Below, piece after piece: positions 531 to 22,579 of a stretch of 26,949 nt of DNA. This stretch comes from a virus. The first letter of the stretch is position 1; each line of letters begins with the position of its first letter. Below the pieces are notes generated by a model. The model was given only the letters and a program-made list of their open reading frames with translations, was not told the DNA's origin and ran no database searches. The stretch lies in the IMG/VR virus record IMGVR_UViG_3300045836_000276, positions 1 through 26,949 of that record; one strand, given 5' to 3'. The position numbers and the translations under genes are program-made.

Positions 531-560
531 TTGACAAATAGTCACGTAAGGGCTGATGAT
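531..560 (+). promoter_or_regulatory. Operator-promoter for the tRNA-Ile cassette
   Basis: TTGACAAATAGTCAC at 531-545 is one copy of the dispersed 15-bp box. Its TTGACA is a perfect -35, and GATGAT at 555-560 follows after 18 bp as a -10. Transcription would start near 567, at the first base of a 9-bp leader hairpin (567-575 with 591-599) that precedes the tRNA. A repressor bound to the box would cover the -35. Confidence 0.7.
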
Positions 561-604
561 GGTCGAGCGGCCCGGTTCCCCGCCGATGCGCCGGGCCGCA
601 CCCC

Positions 605-676
605 GCCGGGGTAGCTCAGCGGCAGAGCAGGACTCTTATAAGGTCCAGCGCGCGGGTTCGATTCCCGTCTCCGGTA
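605..676 (+). tRNA. tRNA-Ile, anticodon UAU (reads AUA)
   Basis: A complete cloverleaf can be drawn by hand. The acceptor stem is 605-611 with 669-675 (two G-U pairs). The D stem is 614-617 with 625-628. The anticodon stem is 630-634 with 642-646, around loop CTTATAA with anticodon TAT at 637-639. The T stem is 652-656 with 664-668, with loop TTCGATT. The discriminator base is A676; CCA is not encoded. The anticodon predicts decoding of AUA, a very rare codon in high-GC hosts, where AUA is usually read by a lysidine-modified CAU tRNA. The gene sits in its own cassette with a promoter at 531 and a terminator-like hairpin at 681-712. Confidence 0.88.
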
Positions 677-680
677 CACG

Positions 681-712
681 TCCCGCAGGTCTTATTCCCC
701 GGCCCTGCGGGA
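681..712 (+). terminator. Hairpin after tRNA-Ile
   Basis: TCCCGCAGG (681-689) pairs perfectly with CCTGCGGGA (704-712), giving a 9-bp stem around a 14-base loop. It lies five bases after the tRNA. No clear T-tract follows, as is common for actinobacterial terminators. The hairpin at 1918-1951 has nearly the same stem and loop. Confidence 0.6.
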
Positions 713-734
713 TGATCCATGTCCGCGTCTTGTG

Positions 735-764
735 TTGACAGATAGTCACGCACCTTGAGATGAT
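735..764 (+). promoter_or_regulatory. Operator-promoter upstream of the 279-aa gene
   Basis: Box TTGACAGATAGTCAC at 735-749 gives a perfect -35 (735-740), followed after 18 bp by GATGAT at 759-764. A second box begins at 764, so transcription would start inside it. The same two-box arrangement with the same 29-bp phase recurs at 1971/2000. Confidence 0.68.
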
Positions 765-778
765 TGACACATAGTCAC
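764..778 (+). promoter_or_regulatory. Second operator box, at the transcription start
   Basis: TTGACACATAGTCAC lies exactly 29 bp downstream of the box at 735, just after the -10. A dimer bound here would block the start site, so the promoter is probably double-locked. The TTG of this box opens a frame with the following gene, but no ribosome site precedes it. Confidence 0.62.
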
Positions 779-799
779 ACGGACCAAGGGAGAGCGCAG

Positions 800-1639
800 A
801 TGAACCGGTTCCCGAACCTCGACGCCGTCCGCGAACACCTGCGCAACCCGACCGAGGCCATGTTCAAGGGCGGCCGGGAGGAGCGCGAAAGCCGGACGGT
901 TCAGATCAAGGCCATCGCCGAGAACGAGACTCTGACTCTCAGCCGGGGCGGCCGGCTGGTCTGCTACAAGGACGAGGGCGACTGGCGTGTTGCCGTTCCC
1001 GGCGTCGCCCGCCACATCCCGATCCCGTTCATCGACCTGCGCAGCAAGACCAAGGCCCTGCTCTTCGCCCAGCTCCTGGAAGAGGGCATTGACATGCCCT
1101 GGGACGAAGACGACGTGGTCGACGCCATGCACGCCTTCCCGGACACGCACGGCGAGTCGCTGCCGTACGCGATCATGCGCATCGTCGCCGGCAACGACAA
1201 GCTGGACCCGAAGGGCCTGGTCGCGGCCGAGGTCGAGGCACACGACGCGAGCCGGGCCAAGCAAGAGCGCATCCTCGCCCGGGAGACGGCGGCCGGCTAC
1301 ACGGAGCGGATCAAGGTCTCGCAGATCGAGCCGGGGGACGAGATCTCGTATTCATACTCGGGCAAGCTGCGCTACGGCTGGCACGGTCTGGGGATCGAAA
1401 CCAAGCCGCACGACTGGGCTAACCTCACGATCCGCGCTCACGTGCTCGACGAGGGCCGGCTGATGACCCGGCACGGCAACAACTACGACGAGTTCATGGA
1501 CGGGCTGCGGTTCAAGGCGCAGGCCGTGTCCTGGTTCGACGACAACGGTGACGCGACCGGAACTCTGCCCGAGTACGCGATCGTGCCTACGGTCGACTGG
1601 TCCGCCCGGGTTCTGCGCAAGCCGAAGGCGGCAATCTGA
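800..1639 (+). CDS. Hypothetical protein, 279 aa, in a moron-like cassette
   Basis: I do not recognise the family. The ATG at 800 is chosen because AAGGGAG lies 8 bases upstream. The TTG at 764 in the same frame is part of an operator box. The protein is soluble, with charged N- and C-terminal regions and no membrane segment. Visible features are an acidic MPWDEDDVVDAMHAFPD patch near residue 105-120, an aromatic SYSYSGKLRYGWHGLGIE stretch near 190, and a C-terminal VPTVDWSARVLRKPK tail. It is the first gene of a two-gene unit: its stop overlaps the start of the zinc-binding protein at 1639 (TGATG), so the two are probably translated together. The cassette is opposite in orientation to the structural genes around it. 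Confidence 0.75.
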   Translation: MNRFPNLDAVREHLRNPTEAMFKGGREERESRTVQIKAIAENETLTLSRGGRLVCYKDEGDWRVAVPGVARHIPIPFIDLRSKTKALLFAQLLEEGIDMPWDEDDVVDAMHAFPDTHGESLPYAIMRIVAGNDKLDPKGLVAAEVEAHDASRAKQERILARETAAGYTERIKVSQIEPGDEISYSYSGKLRYGWHGLGIETKPHDWANLTIRAHVLDEGRLMTRHGNNYDEFMDGLRFKAQAVSWFDDNGDATGTLPEYAIVPTVDWSARVLRKPKAAI

Positions 1640-1902: not shown

Positions 1903-1917
1903 CTCCGCTGGGGACAA

Positions 1918-1951: not shown

Positions 1952-1970
1952 CTTGTGTCTGCTCCTTGTC

Positions 1971-2000: not shown

Positions 2001-2014
2001 TGACACATAGTCAC
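2000..2014 (+). promoter_or_regulatory. Second operator box, at the transcription start
   Basis: TTGACACATAGTCAC is identical to the box at 764-778 and lies at the same 29-bp distance from its upstream partner. It would cover the start of transcription. Confidence 0.62.
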
Positions 2015-8288: not shown

Positions 8289-8679
8289 CTGCGGTCACCG
8301 CCTGCCGGTGCCGCTTCACCGCGCGCCACACCGCTTGGTACGCGACGCCGGCCTCCTGTGCGATCTGCTTGAAGGTCTGGCCCTGCTCGTTGAGCTGCGA
8401 CCAGCGCGCGGCGTCGGACGCGTCGTTGCCGTAGTCCAGCGGCGGGGCGGGCTGGTGCACCGCCCTGCCCGCGGTGAAGGCGACGAACTGGCCGTCGACC
8501 TTGACCACGGCGGTCAGGCCGAACTCGGCCGCGGTCTTCTCGATCAGCTCGGCGAACTGCTCGGGGGGAAGGTCGAAGTCGCGGCCGGCGCGGTAGAGGT
8601 GTGCCTGGCCGTCGAGCAGTTCGTCCCAGCGGTAGTGCATGATACGGACATTGTCGTCAAAATCATGACAATACGTCAA
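8281..8679 (-). CDS. HTH-containing protein, 132 aa
   Basis: The C-terminal third (about residues 92-128) is a helix-turn-helix: WSQLNEQGQTFKQIAQEAG then AYQAVWRAVKRHR. The N-terminal part is mixed, with PEQFAELIEKTAAEFGLTAVVKV. TTG 8679 overlaps the upstream stop (TTGA), preceded closely by GAGGG. An alternative start is ATG 8640 (119 aa), which would be leaderless from the promoter at 8679-8650. With the HTH gene just downstream it may form a DNA-recognition pair for packaging or regulation; that is inference. Confidence 0.7.
   Translation of the reverse strand: MTYCHDFDDNVRIMHYRWDELLDGQAHLYRAGRDFDLPPEQFAELIEKTAAEFGLTAVVKVDGQFVAFTAGRAVHQPAPPLDYGNDASDAARWSQLNEQGQTFKQIAQEAGVAYQAVWRAVKRHRQAVTAGV
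8650..8679 (-). promoter_or_regulatory. Possible leftward promoter with degenerate operator box
   Basis: On the minus strand TTGACG (8679-8674), an 18-bp spacer and GACAAT (8655-8650) form a plausible promoter. The stretch 8679-8665 matches the 15-bp operator box at 12 positions. Transcription would start near 8643, right at ATG 8640, suggesting a leaderless mRNA for the HTH genes and those downstream. Confidence 0.35.
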
Positions 8680-10676: not shown

Positions 10677-10929
10677 GGGCCGCGAACGGGTTGGGGACTG
10701 GCTGGCGGGGAGTAGAGGTTACGGCGGAGACGGGAAGAGGCGTCGTCGGCAATGACTTGCGGCCAGCCGCGGTGCGCTTGTCGTGGACAAGACGGAGTCC
10801 TTCGGCAATCAGCTCGGATACCGAGCGGCCGGTGTGTTCGGCCAGTTCCTCGGTGTCCTCCCAGAGCCGCATGTCGCCGGCCCTGACGTAGATGGTCTTG
10901 TTCGGCATACGGGCAGCGTATACGGACAT
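10669..10929 (-). CDS. Ribbon-helix-helix DNA-binding protein, 86 aa
   Basis: The pattern NKTIYVRAGDMRLWEDTEELAEHTGRSVSELIAEGLRLV (about residues 9-48) is a ribbon-helix-helix fold: a beta strand KTIYVRAG that enters the major groove, then two helices separated by a turn. These proteins are dimeric repressors. The start may be ATG 10929 or ATG 10908 (MPNKTIYV, 79 aa). A perfect 18-bp palindrome, 10925-10942, covers the first start and is a natural candidate for its own operator. It is the first gene of the leftward operon. Confidence 0.78.
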   Translation of the reverse strand: MSVYAARMPNKTIYVRAGDMRLWEDTEELAEHTGRSVSELIAEGLRLVHDKRTAAGRKSLPTTPLPVSAVTSTPRQPVPNPFAARD

Positions 10930-10942
10930 GACCGGTCATGTC
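10925..10942. promoter_or_regulatory. 18-bp perfect palindrome at the RHH gene start
   Basis: GACATGACCGGTCATGTC reads the same on both strands and spans the first codon of the RHH gene. Repressors of this fold usually bind such symmetrical sites as dimers or tetramers. Autoregulation is inferred. Confidence 0.55.
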
Positions 10943-12325: not shown

Positions 12326-12897
12326 ACGAGTCCACCGCCCTCGGCCAGGCGACCGCCGACCTGCTGCGCGCCGTCGCCCGGTTCCAGTTGGCCCAGCTCG
12401 GCGACGAGACCTACGGCACGGCATTCACGTCAAGGGACCTGCTCGCCTGCTCTGCCCGGAACCTGGCGATCCAAGTCGACCGGCTGCCGCGCGACCAGCG
12501 CCCGCTCGGCTGGTGGCCGCTGGTCAGCCACCGGGAGCTCGCCGAGGTCCTGCTGATGCGCCTGCGCCAGAAGGAACAGCAGCTCGAATCCTCCCAGCAG
12601 ATCTCGTCCCTTCAGGAAGCTCAGGGCATCCGCTGTGCCGTGCTCCTGATCGAGGGAGCCTTCGGCTTCTCCTCCTCGAAGGATTCCAAATCCTCCGCCT
12701 CCGGACACGTCTCGTCGTACGAAGAGCTGCAGGTCGCCGTATACCGCGACGTCCTGTCGAAGATCCGGGTCCGGGTGATGCAGGTCTGCGACTTCGACTC
12801 CACCGAATCGGCCGCTCCGCAGGACGAGGCCTTCGCCCGCGAGATGGACGAGCTGAACACCTATGTCCGTGAACTGACAGACGGGATGGAGCTGTGA
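12322..12897 (+). CDS. Hypothetical protein, 191 aa (paralogue of the 11523 gene)
   Basis: ATG 12322 overlaps the upstream stop. The first half repeats the plan of the 153-aa protein: ADLLRAVARFQLAQL, IQVDRLPRDQRPLGWWPLV, then LAEVLLMRLRQKE. The second half is longer, with a Ser-rich FSSSKDSKSSASGHVSS stretch encoded by a dispersed inverted repeat (12679-12699), then a helical VYRDVLSKIRVRVMQV and an acidic end. The insertion of a repeat inside the coding region without a frame break suggests these repeats spread and are tolerated as linkers. Function is unknown. Confidence 0.7.
   Translation: MNESTALGQATADLLRAVARFQLAQLGDETYGTAFTSRDLLACSARNLAIQVDRLPRDQRPLGWWPLVSHRELAEVLLMRLRQKEQQLESSQQISSLQEAQGIRCAVLLIEGAFGFSSSKDSKSSASGHVSSYEELQVAVYRDVLSKIRVRVMQVCDFDSTESAAPQDEAFAREMDELNTYVRELTDGMEL
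12679..12699 (+). repeat. Inverted repeat inside the 191-aa gene
   Basis: GGATT (12681-12685) pairs with AATCC (12689-12693), followed by TCCGCC. It is the only clear family member far from a start or stop, and it encodes a Ser/Lys linker. Confidence 0.5.
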
Positions 12898-13247
12898 CCC
12901 TTCTTCTGAACCGCGAGGCGACGACCCTGTCGGACGCCCGGCGCACCGTGGCCGTCGGCTTCCCGCCCGAGATCGCCGACAACGCCGCGCTGGTCCTCTC
13001 CGAGCTGGTGACCAACGCGTTGCTCTACACCGTGCCCGGCGACGTCCGGGTGATCGCGCAGCGCGACCGCAGGTGCGCCAGGTTGATCATCGCCGACCCC
13101 GGCCGTGCGCCGGACTACGTGGAGACTCGCCCGGACGACGAGCACGGCTTCGGCATGGACCTGGTCGACGAACTGTCCGACCGCACGGGAGAGTGGCTGA
13201 CCCCGACCGGCCACCACGTCGTCTGGGCTGCGTGGGACCTGCGATGA
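12894..13247 (+). CDS. RsbW-like histidine-kinase-type ATPase (anti-sigma family), 117 aa
   Basis: The protein is a single GHKL ATPase domain of the small actinobacterial anti-sigma type. The N box is LVLSELVTNAL (E37, N41), the G1 box IIADPG (D68), and the G2 box GFGMDLVDELSD (85-96), followed by a conserved VVWAAW end. In hosts such kinases bind a sigma factor and phosphorylate STAS antagonists. A STAS protein lies at 18690 in the same window, so a phage-encoded partner switch is possible; their pairing is inference. GTG 12894 overlaps the upstream stop (GTGA), and its own stop overlaps the next ATG. Confidence 0.8.
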   Translation: MTLLLNREATTLSDARRTVAVGFPPEIADNAALVLSELVTNALLYTVPGDVRVIAQRDRRCARLIIADPGRAPDYVETRPDDEHGFGMDLVDELSDRTGEWLTPTGHHVVWAAWDLR

Positions 13248-13693
13248 CCGAGAACCGAGAGCCGGCTGCGGTGACGGGGGTTTTCTGTTTCCTCCGCACG
13301 AGCGCCGTGGCGAAGGCCGTGCAGTGGGACGGATTCAACCTGCCCGCGATGGAGGCGTTGCTCGGCCCGCATTTCGACTACAACGTCGGCGACAACGGAG
13401 TCTTCGACGCCTCGGTGCTCACCTCCGCCCACCACGCCTGGCAGGAGGTCTATCCCGGCGACTGGGCAGTGGTCGAGGGCGAGCGGATCGCCGTCTGCGA
13501 CCCCGCCGAGTTCGCCGAGCAGTTCGTCGCCGGGAAACCGTCCTATGAGTGGCGCGTGAGCACCGGCGGTGTCGTCTGGCCGATGCGGGACGAGGCCGGC
13601 TGCCGTGACTTCGGCCGCAAACGCGCGGCACAGGGTCACCAGGTGACGTTGGAGCGTTCCCTGCTCGGTGCGTGGGAGGTCATGGACCTGTGA
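13244..13693 (+). CDS. Conserved phage protein of unknown function, 149 aa
   Basis: ATG 13244 overlaps the upstream stop (ATGA). After a repeat-encoded N-terminus, the protein shows VAKAVQWDGFNLPAMEALLG and then PGDWAVVEGERIAVCDPAEFAEQF. This GDW(I/V)V ... F pattern is widely seen in small phage proteins, with no assigned activity. The C-terminal half, TGGVVWPMRDEAGCRDFGRKRAAQGHQ, is specific to this copy. It is translated together with its neighbours through 4-bp overlaps. Confidence 0.68.
   Translation: MTENREPAAVTGVFCFLRTSAVAKAVQWDGFNLPAMEALLGPHFDYNVGDNGVFDASVLTSAHHAWQEVYPGDWAVVEGERIAVCDPAEFAEQFVAGKPSYEWRVSTGGVVWPMRDEAGCRDFGRKRAAQGHQVTLERSLLGAWEVMDL
13253..13297 (+). repeat. Repeat block after ATG 13244, second hairpin inverted
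   Basis: AACCGAGAGCCGGCT (13253-13267) is the reverse complement, with one mismatch, of the AACCGGCTCTCGGTT element at 11945 and 12283. GGGGG then CCTCCG (13276-13297) is a degenerate GGAGG/CCTCC copy. The element order is kept, but the first part is flipped. Confidence 0.5.
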
Positions 13694-14433
13694 CCGTCCT
13701 GGATCAGAAACGAGGACCGGTTCCGGCGACGAAGGATTCCGTTTCCTCCGCCCCGGGCCGGGAGCACGGGTACGCGAAGTACAAACTGGAGGGCTGTCAC
13801 TGCTACCCGTGCTGTCTCGCGGCGAGCGTCTACAACGCGAAGCGGGAGCGAGGGATCGCCTACGGCACCTGGCAGCCGTTCGTCGATGCGCAGCCGGTGC
13901 GCGAGCACGTCCTGGCGCTGCGCGCGGCGGGACTCGGCCGCCGCAGGCTCCACATCCTGTCCGGTGTCCCGGAGAGGACGATCGAACAGCTGATCAACGG
14001 CAAGTCGGGCAGGCAGCCGCCGAAGAAGGTCCGCGTCGCCACGGCCGAGGCGCTGCTCGCGGTGAAGCTGAGTGCCGAGCCGGCCGATCACGCGCCGGTC
14101 GATGCGACAGGGTTCCAGCGACGGATGCACGCCCTGGTCGCCCGCGGTTTCCCGGGAGCCTTCCTCGCCCACAGGTTCGGGATGACGACCGCGAACTTCT
14201 GGGACCGGTTGGACCGGGGCCAGGTGTGGGCGGTGACCGCGCGCCGCGGCCGGGAGGTCTACGACGAGTTGTGGAACCAGGACCCGCTGAAACTCGGTGT
14301 CTCGCCGCACTCGCGCAACCGGGCGCGGAACTTCGCTCTCGCCCACGGCTGGCCGGGCCCGCTCGCCTGGGACGACGAGAGCATCGACGACCCGAAGGCA
14401 CGCCCCCGAGGTGTCGAGAGGAGGGCGGCGTGA
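13690..14433 (+). CDS. Actinophage HTH DNA-binding protein with Cys-rich N-terminus, 247 aa
   Basis: The N-terminal REHGYAKYKLEGCHCYPCCLAASVYNAKRERG (about residues 22-53) has four cysteines in a zinc-knuckle-like cluster. Residues 70-125 form a helix-turn-helix domain: VREHVLALRAAGLGRRRLHILSG then ERTIEQLINGK. A second helical domain follows (MHALVARGFPGAFLAHRFGMTTANFWDRL), which may be another HTH. This H-G-x-x-x-Y-x-x-x-x-C-x-C architecture is familiar from actinophage regulators of unknown target. It is a candidate for a phage transcription factor and perhaps for the repressor of the 15-bp box, but nothing links them directly. GTG 13690 overlaps the upstream stop. Confidence 0.72.
   Translation: MTVLDQKRGPVPATKDSVSSAPGREHGYAKYKLEGCHCYPCCLAASVYNAKRERGIAYGTWQPFVDAQPVREHVLALRAAGLGRRRLHILSGVPERTIEQLINGKSGRQPPKKVRVATAEALLAVKLSAEPADHAPVDATGFQRRMHALVARGFPGAFLAHRFGMTTANFWDRLDRGQVWAVTARRGREVYDELWNQDPLKLGVSPHSRNRARNFALAHGWPGPLAWDDESIDDPKARPRGVERRAA
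13731..13752 (+). repeat. Start-associated inverted repeat
   Basis: AGGA (13733-13736) and TCCT (13744-13747) flank TTCCGTT, followed by CCGCC. The copy begins 41 bases after GTG 13690 and encodes KDSVSSAP, nearly the same peptide as the 11540 copy. Confidence 0.55.
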
Positions 14434-14525
14434 ACGGGAACTTCTACCGCGGTCTCGTACTCGCGCTGACGGCGGCGCTGCTGTTCTGGATCGGTGTGAT
14501 GTTCCTCGTCAAGGAGCTGACGTGA
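14430..14525 (+). CDS. Single-helix membrane peptide, 31 aa
   Basis: GTG 14430 overlaps the upstream stop and has a strong GAGGAGGG site. The peptide is one transmembrane helix (YRGLVLALTAALLFWIGVMFLV) with a KEL tail. Size and layout fit small phage membrane peptides (holin-like, superinfection or signalling), but a specific role cannot be told. It overlaps the next GTG by 4 bases. Confidence 0.7.
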   Translation: MNGNFYRGLVLALTAALLFWIGVMFLVKELT

Positions 14526-14821
14526 CGGCGCTGATCCGCTCGCTGACGGCGAGCCAGGTGGCCGAGGCGCTGTTCGTGAGCCAGGCCACGGTCGGCAGGT
14601 ACGCGGTCGCCGGCCGGATCCCGTTCGACACGACGCCCGGCGGCCACCGCCGCTACAACCTGGCCGAGGTGCGCTCCGCGCTGCGGCGCGAGTCGACGAG
14701 GCCGGAACTGGACCCGGACGTGCTGCTGACCGATCTGCGCGCACTGACCAAGGCCGTGGCCCATCTGACGGCCCGTATCGAGATGTTCGTCCAGCAATCG
14801 AGAGCGAAGGAGGAGGCATGA
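14522..14821 (+). CDS. MerR/excisionase-like HTH protein, 99 aa
   Basis: Residues 7-55 are a MerR-type winged helix: SLTASQVAEALFVSQATVGRYAVAGRI then FDTTPGGHRRYNLAEVRSAL. GGHRRY is the canonical wing. The C-terminal 40 residues are helical, with heptad-like LTKAVAHLTARIEMFVQQ, suggesting a dimerising coiled coil. It is therefore a dimeric DNA-binding regulator, a candidate for the phage operator binder or a recombination directionality factor. GTG 14522 is preceded by AAGGAG six bases upstream. Confidence 0.76.
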   Translation: MTALIRSLTASQVAEALFVSQATVGRYAVAGRIPFDTTPGGHRRYNLAEVRSALRRESTRPELDPDVLLTDLRALTKAVAHLTARIEMFVQQSRAKEEA

Positions 14822-15348
14822 CCGGGATCACGCTGAATATCGACTTCAAGGATATCGACCTGGGGATGGAAATCGGCCGGGTCATCGACGAGGAAGGGGA
14901 CGTCGTCGGGGAGAGCACGCTAGCCGGCGCGGTGGTGCAGAAGCTGGCGGCCGAGGCGTCGCGTCAGTACAAGACCGAGTTGGCACAGCGCGTGCGCGAG
15001 ATCCGGGACGAAGAGATCCGGCTGGCCATCGCCCCCGAGATCGCGCTGGCGTTGGGTGAGCCGTTCCGGCGCACCAACGGATACGGGGAGCCGAAGGGCG
15101 AGCCGGTGACGATGCGCGAGTACATCGTCGACGTCGTCCAGTCGTGGATGAACGAGCGCGACAAGTACAACCACGACAAGGGCACGAACATCGAGCGGCT
15201 GGTGCGCAAACTGGTCGAGGAGGCTTTCAAGGCCGAGATCGCCGCGGCGGTGAAGTCGGCTCGCGAGGCCGTGACCAAGCAGATCGGCGAGTCGTTCGGC
15301 AACGCCGTGACTGACGCCGTGCGCACCGGACTGCGGGCGAGTATCTGA
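14818..15348 (+). CDS. Hypothetical phage protein, 176 aa
   Basis: ATG 14818 has AAGGAGG three bases upstream and overlaps the previous stop (ATGA). The protein is long-helical and charged: VVQKLAAEASRQYKTELAQRVREIRDEEI in the N-terminal half and a C-terminal ERLVRKLVEEAFKAEIAAAVKSAREAV. A central, more conserved-looking block, GEPVTMREYIVDVVQSWMNER, lies between. This points to a coiled-coil, oligomeric protein. No enzyme motif. Family not named. Confidence 0.7.
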   Translation: MTGITLNIDFKDIDLGMEIGRVIDEEGDVVGESTLAGAVVQKLAAEASRQYKTELAQRVREIRDEEIRLAIAPEIALALGEPFRRTNGYGEPKGEPVTMREYIVDVVQSWMNERDKYNHDKGTNIERLVRKLVEEAFKAEIAAAVKSAREAVTKQIGESFGNAVTDAVRTGLRASI

Positions 15349-15725
15349 TGGGTGAGGAGTACGACGCCGCTGAGGACGCCTTTCTGGCTGGCGAGCATTT
15401 CAGACAGCGTCCCGGCGACCAGCCGCTGCCGACTGGCGGCCGGGAGTGCGTCCAGAACCGGTTGATCCAGGCCATCCAGGAGCGCAGGGACCTTGGCGTA
15501 GCGCGCTATGGGCAGCCGCTGATGACGCACAACGGGCGCGACGCGCTGCAGGACGCCTGGGAGGAGGCCGTCGACCTGACGGTCTACCTCACCCAGCTGC
15601 GGATGGAGGCAGATGACCGGACCGAGGCCACTCAGCTGCTACGGAACTGGCTCGACCTGCATGTCCACGACCGGGGTGCGGGCACCGTCATGCGCGCCTA
15701 CTTGTTGCTGGGAGGAAAACCGTGA
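15348..15725 (+). CDS. MazG-like / nucleotide pyrophosphohydrolase-like protein, 125 aa
   Basis: The core LGVARYGQPLMTHNGRDALQDAWEEAVDLTVYLTQ (about residues 49-83) matches the all-alpha pyrophosphohydrolase pattern used by phage MazG-like proteins: a helix with EEAVD (72-76), where the acidic residues bind Mg2+. Such enzymes hydrolyse (d)NTPs or alarmone-related nucleotides; the substrate is unknown. Only one EExxD helix is clear, so the fold may be a reduced version. ATG 15348 overlaps the upstream stop. Confidence 0.65.
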   Translation: MGEEYDAAEDAFLAGEHFRQRPGDQPLPTGGRECVQNRLIQAIQERRDLGVARYGQPLMTHNGRDALQDAWEEAVDLTVYLTQLRMEADDRTEATQLLRNWLDLHVHDRGAGTVMRAYLLLGGKP

Positions 15726-15940
15726 CCGACTACCGCGCGCAGGCGATCAAGTGGGCGGGAGCGGAGCGGGCGGCGATGGTCGACGCGATCGCGCCGTTCC
15801 TGCACCACAACGAGTCGCTGCACATGCACGAGGACATCGGCGAGAGCTGCTGCGCGTACTGCTGGCTGCGCGCCGGCAAGGCGGTGATGGCGCTCGCCGC
15901 GGCCGGGCTGCTGCCGGGTGCTCAGGCGGCCGGTCGATGA
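15722..15940 (+). CDS. Hypothetical protein with CCxxC, 72 aa
   Basis: GTG 15722 has a strong GGGAGGA site and overlaps the upstream stop. The sequence is helical at both ends with a His/Cys-rich middle: HHNESLHMHEDIGESCCAYCWLRAG. The two His and three Cys could bind a metal. No known family is apparent. ATGA overlap with the next gene. Confidence 0.66.
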   Translation: MTDYRAQAIKWAGAERAAMVDAIAPFLHHNESLHMHEDIGESCCAYCWLRAGKAVMALAAAGLLPGAQAAGR

Positions 15941-16143
15941 CCGAGGTCTGGGAACTGGGCGCGTTGGACTCCAAGGTCGACTGGGAGGGCGGTGTGCTGG
16001 AGGCGATCGAGTACGGCATCAAGCCCGAGGAGGTTCCCGAGGGCGAGCTGCGTGAGTTGTGGGCGAAGGCGTGCGCGCTGCACGCCGAGCTGGAGCCGGT
16101 GCTGGAGCGCATCGGCGAGATCCTGGAAGAGGGCCGCACGTGA
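15937..16143 (+). CDS. Hypothetical acidic protein, 68 aa
   Basis: ATG 15937 overlaps the upstream stop (ATGA); the ribosome site is weak. The chain is acidic and mostly helical (EGELRELWAKACALHAELEPVLERIGEILEEG). No motif. GTGA overlap with the next gene indicates coupled expression. Confidence 0.66.
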   Translation: MTEVWELGALDSKVDWEGGVLEAIEYGIKPEEVPEGELRELWAKACALHAELEPVLERIGEILEEGRT

Positions 16144-17117
16144 GCCGCCTCTACTTCTCCTCCCCGTCCGGCGAGGCCGGGGTGAGCGGAGCCGAGTGGC
16201 ACTGGCTGCGCCGGCTGGCGCAGCGGCCCGGTGAAGCGGCCTGGGATCTGGACGACTTCGACCGCGCGACCCAGATCATGGCGCTGCTGGCACCTGACCG
16301 GGAGACGCAGCACCTGTTCAACGAGTTCGAGAAGGCCGCGGCGGTCGAGCGGCGCAACAAGGAGTTGTGGTCCGAGTGGGAGAGGATGCCGAAGCCGCGT
16401 CCTCACCCGTCGACCGACTACGAGCCGCAGCACCGGTTCGTCCAGCACCTGCGCACCTCGCTGCGCGTGAACAGCCACCCGATGCGCGTCGGCGGGATCG
16501 AACTGCGCAGCGCGAACGTGGAGCTGAACACCGCGCTGGTCGCGGGTAGCGACCTGGTCCGGCTCGCGGCCAAGCTGTCGATGTGGGCCGACCGCTTTCC
16601 CTTCGTCGAGGGAGCGGACCGCGCGTGGCTGGCCGACCTGATCGAGCAGGGCCTCAAGTCGGGGATGTACCGGCGCTCGCTGAACGGCCACGACATCGGC
16701 TGGCCGGGCGTCGTCGAACTCCTTCGCTCCCGCGACGACGAACCGGTGGTCGTGCACTACTCGGTCGAGGACTCGTTTCCGAGCCGCAGCGTCGCCGACT
16801 GGGCGCCGCCCGAGATGCCGGAGGGCTGGGCGCCGGACTGGGCGACTGATCGCTCCGACGCGGGCGAGTGGGCGTCCATGCCCGATGATCAGCGGCGCGC
16901 GTACTGGGGCGAGCACGTGAGCGACCTCTGGTATGAACTGCCGCTGGCCGAGCGCTGGGAGCGGTCGCTGGCCGGCCTGCGCGAGAAGCGCCCGTGGATC
17001 CGGCTGTACCCGGACCTGGCGCACTACACCTTCCATCTCGGGGTGAACGTCTACGACCTGTTCGCTCCGGACCGAGACGAGCGCGTGCGAGCCGCCGCGC
17101 AAGAAGAAGAGGACTGA
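16140..17117 (+). CDS. Conserved phage protein of unknown function, 325 aa
   Basis: GTG 16140 has GGAAGAGGG upstream and overlaps the upstream stop. The protein begins SRLYFSSPSGEAGVSGAEWHWLRRL, a start pattern I associate with a widespread actinophage family without known function. It is Trp- and Glu-rich, with PEMPEGWAPDWATDR and YWGEHVSDLWYELPLAERWE in the second half and no transmembrane segment. It is the largest gene of the rightward operon. An early, host-takeover or replication-related role would fit its position but is unproven. Confidence 0.7.
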   Translation: MSRLYFSSPSGEAGVSGAEWHWLRRLAQRPGEAAWDLDDFDRATQIMALLAPDRETQHLFNEFEKAAAVERRNKELWSEWERMPKPRPHPSTDYEPQHRFVQHLRTSLRVNSHPMRVGGIELRSANVELNTALVAGSDLVRLAAKLSMWADRFPFVEGADRAWLADLIEQGLKSGMYRRSLNGHDIGWPGVVELLRSRDDEPVVVHYSVEDSFPSRSVADWAPPEMPEGWAPDWATDRSDAGEWASMPDDQRRAYWGEHVSDLWYELPLAERWERSLAGLREKRPWIRLYPDLAHYTFHLGVNVYDLFAPDRDERVRAAAQEEED

Positions 17118-17119
17118 CC

Positions 17120-17596
17120 GTGGGAGTGAGCACAAACGCTTACCTGTTCTACGGGTACTGCTGGCAGGACGAGGATTACGACTTTGAGACCGACATCGAC
17201 GAGGTCGTCAAGGCGATGCTGGTCGGTCGCGGTATGACGGATCCGTGGAAGGAGCACTACGTCGGCGAACAGCCGTACGAGAACTACAAGGCGTGGGCCG
17301 CGACACCGCAGGGAAGTGTCGAGGAAGCCGCCTGGTATGCAGCGCAGGAGGAGGCGAAGGCCGAACTCGGCGTTGACTGGGGTAGCCACTGCTCGAATGA
17401 CTACTCGATCCCTTACCTGCACATCCCGCAAAGCCAGACGACCGCATACCGCGGTACGGCGCAGCCGATCACCGAGGACCTGAGCGTCGATCCGAAATGG
17501 AGAGAGAGGCTGGACACGTTCCTCTCTTCCCAGAACATCGAGCCGCCCGAGGGCGAGAACCAGCCGGGTTGGTGGCTTGCCTCGTACTGGGGCTGA
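17120..17596 (+). CDS. Hypothetical acidic protein, 158 aa
   Basis: GTG 17120 follows AAGAAGAGGA; GTG 17126 is an alternative. The protein is rich in Tyr, Trp and Asp (NAYLFYGYCWQDEDYDFETDIDEVV at the N-terminus). The middle carries EEAAWYAAQEEAKAELGVDWGSHCSNDYSIPYLHIPQS. The highly acidic, aromatic character is reminiscent of DNA-mimic or anti-defence proteins, but that is speculation. No recognised domain. Confidence 0.65.
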   Translation: MGVSTNAYLFYGYCWQDEDYDFETDIDEVVKAMLVGRGMTDPWKEHYVGEQPYENYKAWAATPQGSVEEAAWYAAQEEAKAELGVDWGSHCSNDYSIPYLHIPQSQTTAYRGTAQPITEDLSVDPKWRERLDTFLSSQNIEPPEGENQPGWWLASYWG

Positions 17597-17598
17597 CG

Positions 17599-17787
17599 TT
17601 GGGCACGTTATGCCAGGACAAGATCAGGTACCGCGACCGTATCGGCGCGCAACTCGCGCTGTTGCGGATCCAGCGCAAAGCTGAGCGTAAGAAAAGGAAG
17701 AAGGCTCCGACCCGGGTCTACGAGTGCCAGGTCTGCAAGGGTTGGCACACGACGTCTCAGGAACAGAAAACGCCGAAGACCAGCTAG
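17599..17787 (+). CDS. Small zinc-knuckle protein, 62 aa
   Basis: The C-terminus, VYECQVCKGWHTTSQ (residues 41-55), is a signature of short actinophage proteins: C-x2-C followed by G-W-H-x-T-S. Before it comes a very basic helix, RIQRKAERKKRKKAPTR, which suggests nucleic-acid contact. The start is uncertain; TTG 17599, three bases after the preceding stop, is the simplest choice, because no ATG or GTG is available after 17497, which lies inside the previous gene. It is the last gene of the rightward operon; a hairpin-rich region follows. Confidence 0.62.
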   Translation: MGTLCQDKIRYRDRIGAQLALLRIQRKAERKKRKKAPTRVYECQVCKGWHTTSQEQKTPKTS

Positions 17788-17857: not shown

Positions 17858-18613
17858 TTACGCGTCCAGGTCGACGGGCGGAAGGGTCTGGTACCCGATG
17901 ACCTCGCGCTCCGGGAGCACGGCCTCGGAGTAGACGATGACCCCGTCCTCGTCCCACCAGCGCGAGACGTGCCCTATCACCGGGGAGTCGGCGGCGACGA
18001 ACAGCTGGGACGCCTCCCGGGCGCTGGCGCGGCGGGCGTGCATGTCGTCCCGGGCCGAGGTGACCGAGCGGTTCGAGGCCTTGAGGTACAGCGCGGTGGC
18101 GTGGTTGACGGTCGACGGGTTGGTCTGGGCGAGCGTCGGGCACAGCGCCGCGGCCTCGGCCGGGTACCAGTCGACCACCAGCATCAGGCGCTTGAGGCTG
18201 CGCCCGACCACGTATTCGCGCCGCAGCACGCGGGCGGAGGACGGGTCCAGGTCGAACAGGTCCGCGACGTACGCGGGCGGCGCGACGACCTCGGCCGAGT
18301 TGACGAACGCGCTCTCGCCCTCCACCAGGTAGGGCAGGTTGCGCCGCACCCGGGAGAGTCGGTCGAGCCCGACGAGGGTGAGCTGGTGCTCGTCGCTGAC
18401 GTATACGCCGCGCGGGGTGACGCGCACCAGTCCCTCCACCTGCAGCGCGGCGTAGGCCTTGCCCGCGGTCGCGACGGCGACGCCGTGGCGGGCCGCCAGT
18501 TCCTCGACGGTGAGCAGCCGCTCGTTGGGGCTCAGTCCGTTCTCGCGGCCGCCTTCGAGGATGCGCGTGCGGATGTCGTCGACGATCTCGGTGTACTTCG
18601 CGGCGCGCGGCAT
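17858..18613 (-). CDS. GntR-family (HutC/UTRA type) transcriptional regulator, 251 aa
   Basis: The N-terminal winged helix, about residues 7-74, has the GntR layout: IVDDIRTRILEGG, then NERLLTVEELAARHGVAVATAGKAYAALQVEGLVRVTPRGVYV. Residues 100-245 look like a UTRA ligand domain (RVLRREYVVG, RLMLVVDWYPAEAAALCP, VYSEAVLPEREVIGYQTLP). Relatives in actinobacterial integrative elements (KorSA type) act as repressors. ATG 18613 follows a good AGAGGTGAC site. The divergent promoter region holds two 16-bp repeats that are probable operator half-sites. Whether a ligand exists is unknown. Confidence 0.88.
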   Translation of the reverse strand: MPRAAKYTEIVDDIRTRILEGGRENGLSPNERLLTVEELAARHGVAVATAGKAYAALQVEGLVRVTPRGVYVSDEHQLTLVGLDRLSRVRRNLPYLVEGESAFVNSAEVVAPPAYVADLFDLDPSSARVLRREYVVGRSLKRLMLVVDWYPAEAAALCPTLAQTNPSTVNHATALYLKASNRSVTSARDDMHARRASAREASQLFVAADSPVIGHVSRWWDEDGVIVYSEAVLPEREVIGYQTLPPVDLDA

Positions 18614-18624
18614 GCTGTCACCTC

Positions 18625-18670
18625 TTGCGTGGGGAAACTAGTTTGCTCTACGGTGAAACTAGGTTGCTCT
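18625..18670 (+). promoter_or_regulatory. Divergent promoter with two direct operator repeats (GntR target)
   Basis: GAAACTAGTTTGCTCT (18634-18649) and GAAACTAGGTTGCTCT (18655-18670) match at 15 of 16 bases and start 21 bp apart, two helical turns. TTGCGT (18625-18630), an 18-bp spacer and TACGGT (18649-18654) form a rightward promoter for the STAS gene. The repeats cover the spacer and the start site, so repressor binding would block it; they also lie upstream of the GntR gene. Confidence 0.62.
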
Positions 18671-18689
18671 CACAGACTAGGGGATGCGC

Positions 18690-19085
18690 ATGGACGCGCT
18701 CAAACCGCTCGACGTGGAGTCGTGGATCGATCAGGGCCGGGCCGTCGTGGTGGTGGGCGGCGATTTGGACACGCGCTCCGCCCCCCGGCTGCGCGCCGAG
18801 TTGGAGCAGCTGCAGCCGCCGGCCCGCTACCGGGTGGTCCTGGACCTGCGGAACCTGACGTTCATCGACGAGACCGGGATCGGCGTGCTGATCGGTGCGG
18901 CCAACCGGGCGAGGGCCGGCCGCGGCAGGACGGTGGTCGTCGCTCCCCGCGACGGCGTCGCGCGCCGGCTGTCGATCATGGGCCTGGCCGCGGTGCTGCC
19001 GCAGGTGGGCAGTCTCGACGAGGCGTTCGCCGTCCTGTCCTCAGCGCTTCCCTTGACAGATAGTCACACGAACGAGAAGATGTGA
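18690..19085 (+). CDS. STAS-domain anti-anti-sigma factor-like protein, 131 aa
   Basis: STAS proteins bind RsbW-type kinases and are switched by phosphorylation of a serine in a D-S-S/T-G motif. Here the sequence is LDLRNLTFIDETGIGVLIGAANRAR (51-75): D60-E61-T62-G63. One of the two usual hydroxyl residues is Glu, which may mimic a charged state or leave Thr62 as the only target. ATG 18690 is preferred to ATG 18684, because AGGGG lies seven bases upstream. The last 11 codons are the next operator box and promoter (19053-19081), an unusual overlap of coding and control DNA. A possible partner is the ATPase at 12894. Confidence 0.83.
   Translation: MDALKPLDVESWIDQGRAVVVVGGDLDTRSAPRLRAELEQLQPPARYRVVLDLRNLTFIDETGIGVLIGAANRARAGRGRTVVVAPRDGVARRLSIMGLAAVLPQVGSLDEAFAVLSSALPLTDSHTNEKM
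19053..19081 (+). promoter_or_regulatory. Operator-promoter of the 143-aa gene, inside the end of the STAS gene
   Basis: Box TTGACAGATAGTCAC at 19053-19067 provides a perfect -35. GAAGAT at 19076-19081 follows after 17 bp. The inverted box at 19082-19096 lies at the start site. Confidence 0.68.
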
Positions 19086-19096
19086 CTATCAGTCAA
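19082..19096 (-). promoter_or_regulatory. Inverted operator box at the start site
   Basis: GTGACTATCAGTCAA is the box in reverse (TTGACTGATAGTCAC on the minus strand). It sits 29 bp from the direct box at 19053, the same phase seen at 735/764 and 1971/2000, but with opposite orientation. Confidence 0.55.
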
Positions 19097-19116: not shown

Positions 19117-19548
19117 ATGGCGGAGCAGCAGTACATGGCGAAGGTGATCGACGGCGCGACCCGCGGCCCGGTCGAGAAGTGGTTCGAGACCCGGATGGAC
19201 CGGGCGCTCTGGCTGCTGGAGAACGGCTACAGCTCGATGCGGGTCCTGAGTTTCTCCGACCCCGAGAGCGACGCGCGGCCGAGCGTCTTCGACGTCGACC
19301 AGGTGCAGAGCCCGATCGATGTGTTCTACCTGCGCCGCCGGAACACCGCCGACAGCGGCATGACGTTGAACTGCCAGCCCGACCCGCGTTGGCCGTCGCC
19401 TGAGCGGCACGAGTCCTGCCACGGCTGGGTTGCTCCCCTGAACAAGATCGGCCACGCGTGCAACTGCGACTGCCACCTGAACGGCAACGCCCCATGGTCG
19501 TACAACGCGGACCTGGAGCGTGTGAAGAGCCTGACCATTACGCGCTGA
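19117..19548 (+). CDS. Hypothetical phage protein with Cys-rich C-terminus, 143 aa
   Basis: ATG 19117 is preceded by GAAGGGGAG. Residues 5-60 are mixed (YMAKVIDGATRGPVEKWFETRMDRALWLLENGY). The C-terminal half has RHESCHGWV and then HACNCDCHLNGN, with four Cys and three His that could hold one or two zinc ions. The family is not recognised. The gene is expressed from the double-box promoter just upstream, and its end overlaps the convergent excisionase-like gene by 11 bp. Confidence 0.72.
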   Translation: MAEQQYMAKVIDGATRGPVEKWFETRMDRALWLLENGYSSMRVLSFSDPESDARPSVFDVDQVQSPIDVFYLRRRNTADSGMTLNCQPDPRWPSPERHESCHGWVAPLNKIGHACNCDCHLNGNAPWSYNADLERVKSLTITR

Positions 19549-19732
19549 GCGCTTCGACGATCGACGCGGTCACGACCCGGACGGTGGAGCCGACCTTCAG
19601 CGTCCGGGCCGGGAAGTGCCCGGTGCGGGCCAGCTCATAAGCGTGGGAGCGGCTGATGCCGAAGGCCTCCGCTGCCCGCTCGATCGAGACGGCGGCCGGC
19701 CAGGAGCGGATCTCGTCCAGGGTGTAGCTCAC
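19538..19732 (-). CDS. Excisionase-like small HTH protein, 64 aa
   Basis: The pattern VSIERAAEAFGISRSHAYELARTGHFPARTLKVGSTVRVVTASIVEAL is the excisionase/MerR-like winged HTH used by recombination directionality factors and small phage regulators. It lies directly next to the integrase, on the opposite strand, with a control region between, which is the usual xis-int relationship. GTG 19732 is preferred because GAGG lies five bases upstream; ATG 19744 is the alternative (68 aa). Its promoter uses the inverted box at 19777-19791. A Cox-like repressor role is an alternative. Confidence 0.74.
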   Translation of the reverse strand: MSYTLDEIRSWPAAVSIERAAEAFGISRSHAYELARTGHFPARTLKVGSTVRVVTASIVEALSA

Positions 19733-19761
19733 AGGTCCTCGCATTCTCCGTAGACCGCATC

Positions 19762-19791
19762 AGTCTGGACAGTGGCGTGACTATCTGTCAA
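19762..19791 (-). promoter_or_regulatory. Operator-promoter of the excisionase-like gene
   Basis: On the minus strand TTGACAGATAGTCAC (19791-19777) supplies the -35. CAGACT (19767-19762) follows after 18 bp. The box lies 24 bases before the integrase start and so could also influence it. Confidence 0.6.
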
Positions 19792-19814: not shown

Positions 19815-21137
19815 GTGGCCAAGGAGGAGCCGATCCGCAGGATCCTGCTCGCGGACGGCAAGACGAAGCGGTACCGCCTCGTCGTCGACATCGGCGACGA
19901 CCCGGTCACCGGCAAGCGGCGGCAGTTCACGGGCACCTACACCAAGCTCAAGGACGCCAAGGCCGAACTCGCGCGCATCCGGCACGAGCGCAACACCGGC
20001 ACCTTCGTGCGGCCGGACAAGGAGCGCACCTTGAACGACGAGCTCGACGACTACCTCGCCGGGCTGCGCGGGAAGGAGGAGGCGACGCTGGCCAGCTACC
20101 GCCACGCGGTCAAGCCGGCCCGTGCGTTCATGGGAGAGCGCCGGCTGCAGGAACTGGAGAAGAAGGACTTCGACGAGTTCGTCGAGTGGATGTCGACGCA
20201 GGGACGCGCCCGCTCCACCTCCCCCCGCTACGGCAAGGGCCACGGACCGCGGGGCGTGCAGCTGACACTCAGCCGCCTGCAGGCCGCGCTGGACATCGCG
20301 GTGGCCGAGAAGCGGATCGCGTACAACCCGGTACGGCTGGTGGAGCGGCCGAAGAAGGTGAAACCCGAGCACGAGCTGTGGACCGACGCGGAGGAGGAGC
20401 GGTTCTTCGCCCACGTGGCCGGGGACCGCCTGGTCGCCGTGATCGAGTTGTTCGCCCGAGGCCTGCGTCCCGAGGAGCTGTGCGGCATCCGCTGGGGCGA
20501 CATCGACCCGGCGCAGCGCACCGCGCACACCGGCCTGCACGTGCGCACCGAGGTCGACGGCAGGCCGGTGGAGAAGCGGGCGAAGACGAAGGCGGGAGAG
20601 CGTGTCCTGCCGCTCGACGACGCACTGGTCAGGGCGTTGGAGGACTGGCGCCTGACCCAGCTGGCCGAGCGGCGCCGGGCGCTCTCGGCGTACCGGGACG
20701 GGGACTACGTCCTGTGCGATGAGACGGGTCGTCCCTTCCAGCCCAATTCCCTGCGCCGGTACATGCACAGGTTGATGGAGGCGGCAGGGGTCCGGCGCGT
20801 GACGCCGTATGAGGCGATGCGCCATGCGGCGGGCAGCCGGATGTCGCGGGCCGGGGTGGCGCCGCAGGTGATCGCGGCGTGGATGGGCCACACCAATCCG
20901 TCGTTCACGGCGGACAACTACATGCACGCGCGGCCGCAGGACCTGGCCGCAGCGAGGGACGCGCTGGAGCGCGGCAAGCGAGAACAGGGGAGGGAGAACG
21001 GTGAGCGAGTGGGCGAAAGCAGTGGCCAGAGCGTTAGCGGCGGTGAACCGCGACGCGGAGGCGGACGACGCGGAAAAGTTGCTGGAGCGCGCCGCCGCGC
21101 GGTTGGTGGAGGAAGCGCGGAAGGACCGGCGCAGTGA
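19815..21137 (+). CDS. int: Tyrosine site-specific integrase, 440 aa
   Basis: Integrases of this family insert the phage at an attB site, often a tRNA gene. The order is an N-terminal arm-binding/SAM-like region (to about 180), then the catalytic domain. Catalytic residues read as R218 in FARGLRPEELCGIRW, a beta-hairpin Lys in the KRAKTKAGERVLPL stretch, R336-H337 in PYEAMRHAAG, H359 in WMGHTN, and the nucleophile Y369 in DNYMHA. The first His of the usual HxxR box is Tyr332, an unusual substitution. Residues 390-440 are Gly/Arg/Ser-rich and overlap another gene in a different frame. GTG 19815 follows AGGGAGGCCCG. Confidence 0.9.
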   Translation: MAKEEPIRRILLADGKTKRYRLVVDIGDDPVTGKRRQFTGTYTKLKDAKAELARIRHERNTGTFVRPDKERTLNDELDDYLAGLRGKEEATLASYRHAVKPARAFMGERRLQELEKKDFDEFVEWMSTQGRARSTSPRYGKGHGPRGVQLTLSRLQAALDIAVAEKRIAYNPVRLVERPKKVKPEHELWTDAEEERFFAHVAGDRLVAVIELFARGLRPEELCGIRWGDIDPAQRTAHTGLHVRTEVDGRPVEKRAKTKAGERVLPLDDALVRALEDWRLTQLAERRRALSAYRDGDYVLCDETGRPFQPNSLRRYMHRLMEAAGVRRVTPYEAMRHAAGSRMSRAGVAPQVIAAWMGHTNPSFTADNYMHARPQDLAAARDALERGKREQGRENGERVGESSGQSVSGGEPRRGGGRRGKVAGARRRAVGGGSAEGPAQ

Positions 21138-21144
21138 TGACTGA
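21001..21144 (+). CDS. Small helical protein overlapping the integrase tail, 47 aa
   Basis: GTG 21001 has a strong AGGGGAGGGAG ribosome site. The frame (VSEWAKAVARALAAVNRDAEADDAEKLLERAAARLVEEARKDRR) is a clean amphipathic helix with strongly GC-rich third positions. In contrast, the integrase frame through the same DNA is Gly/Arg-rich with poor third-position bias. This frame is therefore probably the true selected one. Its stop lies inside the start of the next gene. Function is unknown. Confidence 0.6.
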   Translation: MSEWAKAVARALAAVNRDAEADDAEKLLERAAARLVEEARKDRRSDD

Positions 21145-21427
21145 CAAACCGTTCGACCCGCAGGCCTTCCGCGAGAGCCTGGAGGCAGCGGCCGGCCCGC
21201 TGAGGCGCGTGGCCGCGGTCACCTCGCAGATCGGTCTGTCGAAGATTCCCGCTGATGCGGCGTGTTGTTGCCACTGCCCTGTGTATGAACCGCATGAGTG
21301 CGAGGGTTGGCGTGCGGAGGGGTTGGTGCGCGAAGTGCCCTCGGGCCGGGTCTTCGGGCGTCAGCCGCCGCCCGTACAGGTGCCGGTATGCCGGTCCTGT
21401 CACGGCGTGGCGGTGCGGGACGCGTGA
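21137..21427 (+). CDS. Zinc-binding phage protein, 96 aa
   Basis: ATG 21137 overlaps the end of the 47-aa gene and follows GGAAGGACCGGCGCAGTG; GTG 21134 is an alternative start. Cysteines appear in ADAACCCHCPVYEPHECEGW and in VPVCRSCHG, enough for a zinc site. The N-terminus is helical (DPQAFRESLEAAAGPLRRVAAV). The role is not known. It is the second of three small genes following the integrase. Confidence 0.7.
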   Translation: MTDKPFDPQAFRESLEAAAGPLRRVAAVTSQIGLSKIPADAACCCHCPVYEPHECEGWRAEGLVREVPSGRVFGRQPPPVQVPVCRSCHGVAVRDA

Positions 21428-21456
21428 ATGTGTTCTCTCAGGGGTGGGAGGAAGCG

Positions 21457-21564
21457 GTGCACCGTCGCGAAGACCGGTTGATGAGCTACGCAGTGGGCGT
21501 GCTCGTCGTACTCGTTCTGGCGCTGATCGGTTTCACGGTCGCGTACGTTCTGAGCGCGGGTTAA
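21457..21564 (+). CDS. Single-helix membrane protein, 35 aa
   Basis: GTG 21457 is chosen because GGGAGGAAGCG precedes it. GTG 21424, which overlaps the upstream stop (GTGA), would give 46 aa. After VHRREDRLMSYA comes a 20-residue hydrophobic stretch (VGVLVVLVLALIGFTVAYVL), so the protein is an N-in, single-pass membrane peptide. It has no known family and resembles the 31-aa peptide at 14430 only in layout. Confidence 0.66.
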   Translation: MHRREDRLMSYAVGVLVVLVLALIGFTVAYVLSAG

Positions 21565-21639
21565 GGAGGCTACTGCGCGAGATGCGCGAGGAATAGCAAG
21601 ATCGAAAAGTATTCTGTGACAAAACGTGAGAGGAAGATC

Positions 21640-21802
21640 GTGAAAGCAGCGCGGACGGGGAGCGAGCCGACCACCGGTCGACGCCTCCCGCCTGCGCGGA
21701 CTGCGAGGGTCCGCTCCTCTCGCCAGGATCGCGGATCATGGTCGGTCTTGATCCAGCGTCAAGCACGGATCATCCGTGTCCTATTTGTATGCATTTCAAT
21801 GT
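21640..21802 (+). pseudogene. Possible frameshifted small zinc-ribbon gene
   Basis: GTG 21640 has a good GAGAGGAAG site. The frame then reads Arg-rich nonsense. In another frame (codons beginning near 21681) the DNA encodes PPACADCEGPLLSPGSR ... HPCPICMHFNVR and stops near 21802. That frame has two C-x2-C pairs 23 residues apart, a good zinc ribbon, but no start codon upstream. A single-base indel, real or from sequencing, or an unusual start would explain this. The alternative reading frame, 21616 to 21882, is a weak 88-codon ORF. Confidence 0.35.
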
Positions 21803-21883
21803 CCGCTGATCACGATCGATGTCCGGTGATGTGCGGTCGGATTTTTCCAGTCCGTGAGAGCGTATGTGAGAAAGGCTGTTGAT

Positions 21884-22546
21884 ATGGAGGGCTCGCGGAG
21901 CCGAAACGACGCCGCCGTCTACACGGGTCCGGGCGTGCCGAGGATCTTCGAAGACGCATACGTCGTCAACGCGGACGGTACGCTGAAGATCCTGCGGTGG
22001 TCGACCCGCCACGAACCGAAGCGCCATCCGATCGCCGAGTACGCGCCCGGCTGCTGGGAGCACTACGAGCACCAGGGCGAGCAGGGCGACGAGGTGGCCG
22101 AGCAGCCGAAACCGGCCGAGGCGGCTCGGGCGGCGCCGCGCAAGGCCCGTGCCTCGGTGCGCGACGTCGTCGAGCATCACGACGGTTCCCGGTGGTGGAC
22201 ACCCGACGACGGGCCGGATCCCGAACCGGAGATGAGTCCGGCCGAGCGGGAGGCGCAGATCCGCAGCCGTGAGCCGGGGGTGCCGGAGAACCTGCAGGCC
22301 GCCGCGCTGCGTCCCGCCCTTCCCCCGAGCGACTTCGCCGTGCCGACGCACCGGCTGCCGCAGCGCGAGCCGGCGCAGGCCTCGGATAAGACGCAGCTGT
22401 TGCCCGTGGTGCAGGACGACTCTCGCCAGTCGCCTGCGCCGGCTCGGCGGCGCGGTCGCACACGCGGATCCTGGCCGCGCAGCGGCACCGGTTCCCTGGC
22501 GCTGGCCGTGGTCGCGGCGCTCAGCGTTCTTGCATCCGTCCACTGA
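21884..22546 (+). CDS. Hypothetical tail-anchored membrane protein, 220 aa
   Basis: ATG 21884 has GAGAAAGG about nine bases upstream; GTG 21854 is possible. The N-terminal 60 residues have a compact VPRIFEDAYVVNADGTLKILRWSTRHEPKRHPIAEYAPG region. A long Pro/Glu/Arg-rich, probably disordered middle (residues 65-195) follows, then a basic ARRRGRTRGSWPRSG stretch. A short hydrophobic segment (LALAVVAALSVLASVH) ends the chain. This looks like a tail anchor with a positive-inside flank. Function unknown. Confidence 0.68.
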   Translation: MEGSRSRNDAAVYTGPGVPRIFEDAYVVNADGTLKILRWSTRHEPKRHPIAEYAPGCWEHYEHQGEQGDEVAEQPKPAEAARAAPRKARASVRDVVEHHDGSRWWTPDDGPDPEPEMSPAEREAQIRSREPGVPENLQAAALRPALPPSDFAVPTHRLPQREPAQASDKTQLLPVVQDDSRQSPAPARRRGRTRGSWPRSGTGSLALAVVAALSVLASVH

Positions 22547-22549
22547 GTA

Positions 22550-22579
22550 TTGACAAATAGTCACACCCCTGCCTACGCT
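22550..22579 (+). promoter_or_regulatory. Operator-promoter upstream of the tRNA-like element and helicase
   Basis: Box TTGACAAATAGTCAC at 22550-22564 gives a perfect -35. TACGCT at 22574-22579, after 18 bp, is the best -10 of the set. Transcription would start near 22586 and run through a leader hairpin (GGCGG 22587-22591 with CCGCC 22607-22611). The layout copies the tRNA-Ile cassette at 531-605. Confidence 0.7.

Follow-up and report, generated by a model that had tools for sequence, protein, structure and literature searches.

A dispersed near-palindrome at predicted promoters of a viral contig as the likely operator of a short helix-turn-helix protein

A dispersed motif in the window and in related contigs

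The virus record IMGVR_UViG_3300045836_000276 of IMG/VR, analysed here over its entire length of 26,949 bp (the window), carries a dispersed 15-bp motif, TTGACANATAGTCAC, whose TTGACA coincides with the -35 box of predicted promoters and which we interpret as a repressor operator. Its copies and the genes around them are given below by coordinates and strand; G001 and G003 are related contigs.

531-545, + strand: motif copy, TTGACA as -35; -10 GATGAT at 555-560, spacer 18 bp; predicted to drive the tRNA-Ile at 605-677
605-677, + strand: tRNA-Ile (TAT anticodon), under the putative 531 operator-promoter
735-749, + strand: motif copy; -10 GATGAT at 759-764, spacer 18 bp; predicted to drive genes 800-1902
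764-778, + strand: second copy, covering the predicted start site and 5' untranslated region; no -10
1971-1985, + strand: motif copy; -10 AAAGAT at 1995-2000, spacer 18 bp; predicted to drive gene 2038-2871 (PAPS-reductase-like)
2000-2014, + strand: second copy, covering the predicted start site and 5' untranslated region
8665-8679, - strand: probable weak twelfth copy, TTGACGTATTGTCAT; kept in G001 and G003
11216-11230, - strand: inverted copy, AAGACAAATAGTCAC, overlapping the 11229 copy by 2 bp; arrangement kept in G001 and G003
11229-11243, + strand: motif copy, TTGACGGATAGTCAC; -10 GACGCT at 11252-11257, spacer 17 bp; predicted to drive the rightward operon 11296-17787
17858-18613, - strand: GntR-UTRA regulator, whose promoter lacks a TTGAC site and instead bears conserved AAACTAGTTT repeats
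19053-19067, + strand: motif copy overlapping the 3' end of a STAS gene; -10 GAAGAT at 19076-19081, spacer 17 bp; predicted to drive 19117-19548
19082-19096, - strand: inverted second copy over the predicted start site; inverted pair kept in G001 and G003
19538-19744, - strand: excisionase-like HTH_17 gene (xis), under the putative 19777 operator-promoter
19777-19791, - strand: motif copy at the predicted xis promoter, between xis and int; -10 CAGACT at 19767-19762, spacer 18 bp
19815-21137, + strand: tyrosine integrase (int), which indicates a temperate phage
22550-22564, + strand: motif copy; -10 TACGCT at 22574-22579, spacer 18 bp; predicted to drive a tRNA-like RNA and a helicase, 22744-24351

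All eleven copies listed in a preliminary description of the window are present at their positions and on their strands, and the pairs 735/764, 1971/2000 and 19053/19082 do start 29 bp apart. Eight copies are exact, those at 11229 (TTGACG) and 19082 (TTGACT) carry one mismatch each, and that at 11216 (AAGACA) carries two. Allowing up to three mismatches gave 12 matches in the window, as against a mean of 0.50 and a maximum of 3 in 100 shuffles. In an unbiased count, TGAC-N5-GTCA was the top-ranked gapped palindrome of the window (11 observed, 0.46 expected), and these arms are present in every strict copy. Because the central A8, T9 and A10 are near-invariant, also in copies lacking a -10 box, and asymmetric, the site is an imperfect palindrome; the earlier view of it as a dimer site with TGAC and GTCA arms 5 bp apart stands for the arms, with this correction for the middle. 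The extra match at 8665 lies at the same place in both G001 and G003 and has GACAAT 18 bp downstream, which suggests that it is probably a real site.

An xAnnnT -10 box lies 17 or 18 bp from TTGACA in seven of the eleven window sites (531, 735, 1971, 11229, 19053, 19777 and 22550), in agreement with the earlier proposal that TTGACA is the -35 in most copies. The full TAnnnT form occurs at 22550 only, and no xAnnnT at either spacer was found for 11216 or for the second pair members 764, 2000 and 19082.

A motif scan of viral contigs brought further copies, in four related contigs: G001 (74.7 kb), G003 (72.6 kb), G002 (49 kb) and G004 (6.3 kb) have 15, 13, 6 and 3 strict copies, respectively, and none of a reversed control pattern. 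Among the matches listed, multiple copies were confined to these window-family contigs and to an unrelated one, G005. The window is syntenic with G001 and G003, and most of the proteins they have in common are ~55-92% identical; since G001 reads as circularly permuted, regions missing from the window are visible in it. Megablast of the window against cultured phages returned zero matches; its terminase is closest, at ~47% identity, to those of Streptomyces phages such as Rooney and Gibson, and the host is probably a Streptomyces-like soil bacterium.

We pooled 57 sites from the five contigs (the window and G001-G004) and compared spacers of 10-24 bp. xAnnnT stood at a spacer of 17 or 18 bp in 36 of the 57 sites, while every other spacer had 0-5, and the stricter TAnnnT in 15, against no more than one elsewhere. 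By our own gene calls ~91% of these genomes is coding, yet the majority of the sites are intergenic, and many lie ~50 bp ahead of a start codon on the same strand. The genes downstream are tRNAs, small early genes, xis and the helicase. Where a -10 is missing, the copy is in most cases the second of a pair and covers the predicted start site. The sharp spacer peak in five contigs and the mostly intergenic placement argue that these are operators built into promoters, some of which have a further copy across the start site. They likewise support the earlier suggestion of a dispersed operator with the TTGACA arm as -35, through which one repressor could silence the tRNA, the cassettes, xis, the right operon and the helicase/replication genes.

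A candidate repressor in the relatives

Four proteins of the window had been put forward as binders, and none of them is supported: those at 19538, 14522 and 10419 match HTH_17 (excisionase/MerR-like), 10419 below the family cut-off, and that at 13690 matches no DNA-binding family. The accompanying suggestion that the true repressor may lie outside the window is probably right. The best candidate is a 94-residue helix-turn-helix (HTH) protein of the HTH_3 family, encoded in the relatives.

G001, 41633-41917: gene of the 94-residue HTH_3 protein
G003, 15576-15848: orthologue
G002, 29131-29415: orthologue

The gene is thus present in three of three long relatives carrying the motif, and its HTH core is identical across 23 residues in these three contigs, to which the operator is common. 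Pfam HTH_3 matched at 3.3e-5 (G001) and 1.3e-7 (G003), and a PHROG transcriptional regulator at 2.8e-8. From its position and from a small membrane-like protein we read the gene as placed after lysis genes; family searches on the presumed lysis genes of the relatives were uninformative. Its promoter has a degenerate copy of the motif in register, with the forms TTGACGGAAAGTCAC, TTGACGAAAAGTCAC and TTGACGGATAGTCAC among G001, G002 and G003, followed by the -10 TAAGAT and, six nucleotides after it, by the ATG, so that the mRNA would be leaderless. The protein hence combines a Cro/CI-type HTH domain with a degenerate operator in its own promoter in all three contigs, consistent with a Cro/CI-type (XRE) repressor.

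AlphaFold2, run with 14 homologues, predicted five helices, the HTH plus further ones, at a mean predicted local distance difference test (pLDDT) score of 81. Foldseek matches were weak (best E 0.06) and consistently of Cro/CI-type HTH proteins, among them restriction controller proteins, HigA, TP901-1 CI and P22 c2; a sequence search of solved structures with the 94-residue protein gave no match. A C-terminal F..YLR..VF segment is conserved among its homologues and could serve dimerisation.

Homologues in other phages and known dispersed operators

Among cultured phages, clear homologues of the 94-residue protein were found only in five Hiyaavirus records, at 34-36% identity (Hiyaa gp32, Galactica gp31 and Keanu gp33, for example). 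Their genes follow the endolysin and a membrane gene, are leaderless, and have GACTAGCG-N5-CGCAAGTC at their own -35. CTTGCG-N5-CGCAAG, near-identical to this copy, is among the most enriched palindromes in the Hiyaavirus genomes and in G008, an environmental contig encoding a homologue. CTTG-N9-CAAG occurs 24 times in Hiyaa and 27 times in G008, compared with once for the control, and 22 of the 24 Hiyaa copies are wholly intergenic by our reading of the record annotation. These palindromes keep the register of the window family, with the left arm (TTGCG) as -35 and a spacer of 17/18 bp to the -10. In G014, a second environmental contig, the homologue is of a third type; eight promoters there contain a TTGAC palindrome, one of them degenerate and located at the contig's own HTH gene. 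In three groups, therefore, the HTH gene accompanies a dispersed putative operator and itself carries an imperfect copy. The putative operator forms (window family / Hiyaa) are TTGACAGATAGTCAC and CTTGCGCACCCCGCAAG, plus the degenerate, possibly autoregulatory TTGACGGAAAGTCAC.

The Hiyaavirus system resembles that of the window family in its homologous short HTH protein, gene position, leaderless gene, dispersed promoter operator and register, and differs in its half-site (CTTGCG rather than TTGAC) and in the lack of an annotated integrase. In the same register test, Rooney, R4 and phiC31 served as controls and gave 0, 1 and 3 sites. Because the background in phiC31 is so low that even 3 sites yield a misleading ratio, homologue-bearing contigs outside the window family with 10 or fewer register sites were excluded from support. 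Among the papers searched, none named Hiyaa together with 'Streptomyces phage'. We give even odds to a broader view, in which these proteins form a family of mostly leaderless Cro/CI-type regulators of ~70-100 residues, encoded next to the lysis genes in phages that otherwise differ, integrating and apparently non-integrating alike. Each would have a genome-wide operator of its own, the left arm serving as the -35 and the spacer fixed at 17/18 bp, with half-site and recognition helix differing together between groups and the register constant.

The preliminary description likened the layout to L5 stoperators and phiC31 operators; the likeness holds for the dispersed layout and not for membership, since repeat, symmetry and repressor differ. 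Like the window family, phiC31 has a palindromic operator dispersed in an actinophage genome, and its repressor gene follows closely on the endolysin. Our palindrome count, applied to phiC31 as a positive control, recovered de novo the repeat CTACTCACGTGAGTAG, the known operator of that phage, in 13 exact copies. Unlike the window motif, which is absent from phiC31, this repeat has no 5-bp gap or built-in -35, and the phiC31 repressor gene, at 2,052 bp, is far larger than that of our 94-residue candidate. Repeat sequence and repressor size thus set the window system outside the phiC31 CIR type, though no search of the relatives was aimed at homologues of the phiC31 repressor.

L5 and cluster A phages have 20-30 dispersed stoperators, some in promoters, and one small repressor; the L5 sites are 13 bp long, asymmetric and mostly away from promoters, and the repressor binds them as a monomer and has two DNA-binding domains (PMC9283540, PMC6550527). 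In contrast, the window-family sites are mostly promoter-embedded near-palindromes with symmetric TGAC/GTCA arms (in 36/57 a -10 follows at a spacer of 17/18), the candidate contains a single HTH, and no gp71/gp29-like protein was found. In R4-type phages, as in the window family, the sites are dispersed and the repressor gene is flanked by the lysis genes and the early genes (PMC10276819). R4 lacks the window motif, and neither R4 gp28 nor gp29 (the latter annotated as similar to L5 gp71) showed significant similarity to any protein called in the window or its relatives. Most likely, the window system functions like the dispersed operators of phiC31, L5 and R4 while belonging to neither the L5 nor the phiC31 type.

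Proposed role and competing explanations

We assign a probability of roughly 0.62 to the reading that a single phage-encoded repressor, likeliest the 94-residue HTH protein, has TTGACANATAGTCAC as its operator, with lysogenic silencing as the likeliest role; the last is preferred because the window phage has an integrase and xis. The left arm would double as the -35 of early/middle promoters, with a spacer of 18 bp, sometimes 17. Since this arm is the -35 hexamer itself, a dimer bound over it and the start of the spacer would directly exclude RNA polymerase, and the second copy over the start site would add a further block in several promoters. The repressor would be translated from a leaderless mRNA made at a promoter with a degenerate operator, allowing weak autoregulation. 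In a lysogen, binding and repression by the 94-residue protein would silence the tRNA, the accessory cassettes, xis, the right operon and replication, and would confer immunity.

Several observations weigh against this reading. The asymmetric centre is unexpected for a simple symmetric dimer. The HTH gene lies outside the window, and its presence in the window phage is predicted from synteny; a search for dispersed copies of words from the gene's own promoter was uninformative in this GC-rich DNA. The homologue-encoding contigs G006, G007, G009-G013 and G015 have few or uninterpretable sites. An integrase is absent from the Hiyaavirus annotation, which makes the homologue there unlikely to be the repressor of an integrated prophage. 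A scan of GTDB genomes for integrated copies found no prophage, only a 7-kb contig of a metagenome-assembled genome. Finally, the relatives have a divergent XRE gene pair (G001 52936-53196 and 53327-53701; L133 12936-13701) with CGCACAT repeats of its own and without the TTGAC motif, which may be a separate CI/Cro-like switch and could be the real lysis-lysogeny switch.

The alternative that survives best, possible though clearly less probable, keeps the same HTH protein and makes it a Cro-like temporal switch that, whether expressed along with the lysis genes or independently by its own promoter, would shut early promoters late in infection. It would suit the position of the gene after the lysis genes in Hiyaavirus, and probably in the window family too, as well as the about 24 operators of a phage group with no annotated integrase; immunity could then fall to the divergent XRE pair. 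However, in R4-type Streptomyces phages, too, the gene for the immunity repressor separates the lysis genes from the early ones (PMC10276819). In the window family xis lies under the putative operator, as lysogeny control predicts, and the HTH protein has a separate, leaderless promoter.

It is quite improbable that the motif is an extended -35 element marking a promoter class for a phage-encoded sigma factor, and no operator. A sigma-70-like protein is encoded in the relatives (G001 49036-49545), and the -10 stands at fixed spacing in 36/57 sites; yet about 20 equally conserved copies, second pair members included, have no -10, the motif is nearly palindromic and its right arm, which falls within the spacer, is conserved, and TTGACA/TAnnnT is the usual housekeeping consensus. 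We give slightly less credence still to the GntR-UTRA regulator (17858-18613) as the binder. It adjoins the 19053/19082 pair, is conserved in G001 and G003 beside int/xis, and could be expressed in lysogens, having no TTGAC operator itself; but the intergenic region between it and the STAS gene (18614-18683) holds a different repeat, AAACTAGTTT with AAACTAG, conserved in three phages and found essentially nowhere else, which is probably its own operator, and we rejected it as a candidate. Equally remote is the divergent XRE pair as the repressor, since the motif is absent between these genes and conserved CGCACAT repeats stand there instead, for all that they belong to HTH repressor families in a divergent CI/Cro-like layout.

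If the operator reading with the 94-residue protein is correct, it would represent a third dispersed-operator architecture in actinophages, consisting of a short single-HTH protein and a promoter-embedded site in one fixed register. Immunity groups would become predictable from sequence, regulator/operator pairs would be available for specificity studies, and actinobacteria would gain a compact set of repressible promoters. The function of the HTH gene in cultured Hiyaavirus phages becomes testable at once.

A few further features accompany these loci. The unrelated contig G005 (45% GC; L143 7815-7865) has two exact TTGACAAATAGTCAC copies, 36 bp apart, in the interval that separates a divergent pair of XRE repressor genes; we do not count it as a family member and treat it as convergent. 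Both ends of G001 (1-366 and 74035-74703) lie in the same kind of gene, with repeated SVTASGSASVTAWDTA protein sequence, which suggests that the contig is circularly permuted or that its assembly broke at a repeat. The STAS-domain gene is also noteworthy, since phages do not usually carry one. The tRNA-like RNA at 22616-22712 (acceptor GGCCATG / TGTGGCC, T-arm GCGGGTTCGACTCCCGC), under the putative 22550 operator-promoter, is conserved in both G001 and G003 but recognised neither by ARAGORN nor by Rfam; possible identities are a degenerate tRNA, a structured RNA of another kind and an attP core. At a syntenic place under predicted operator control the tRNA identity varies, with Ile(TAT) in the window (605-677) and G003 (59081-59156), and Met(CAT) in G001 (10889-10963) and G004 (905-980).

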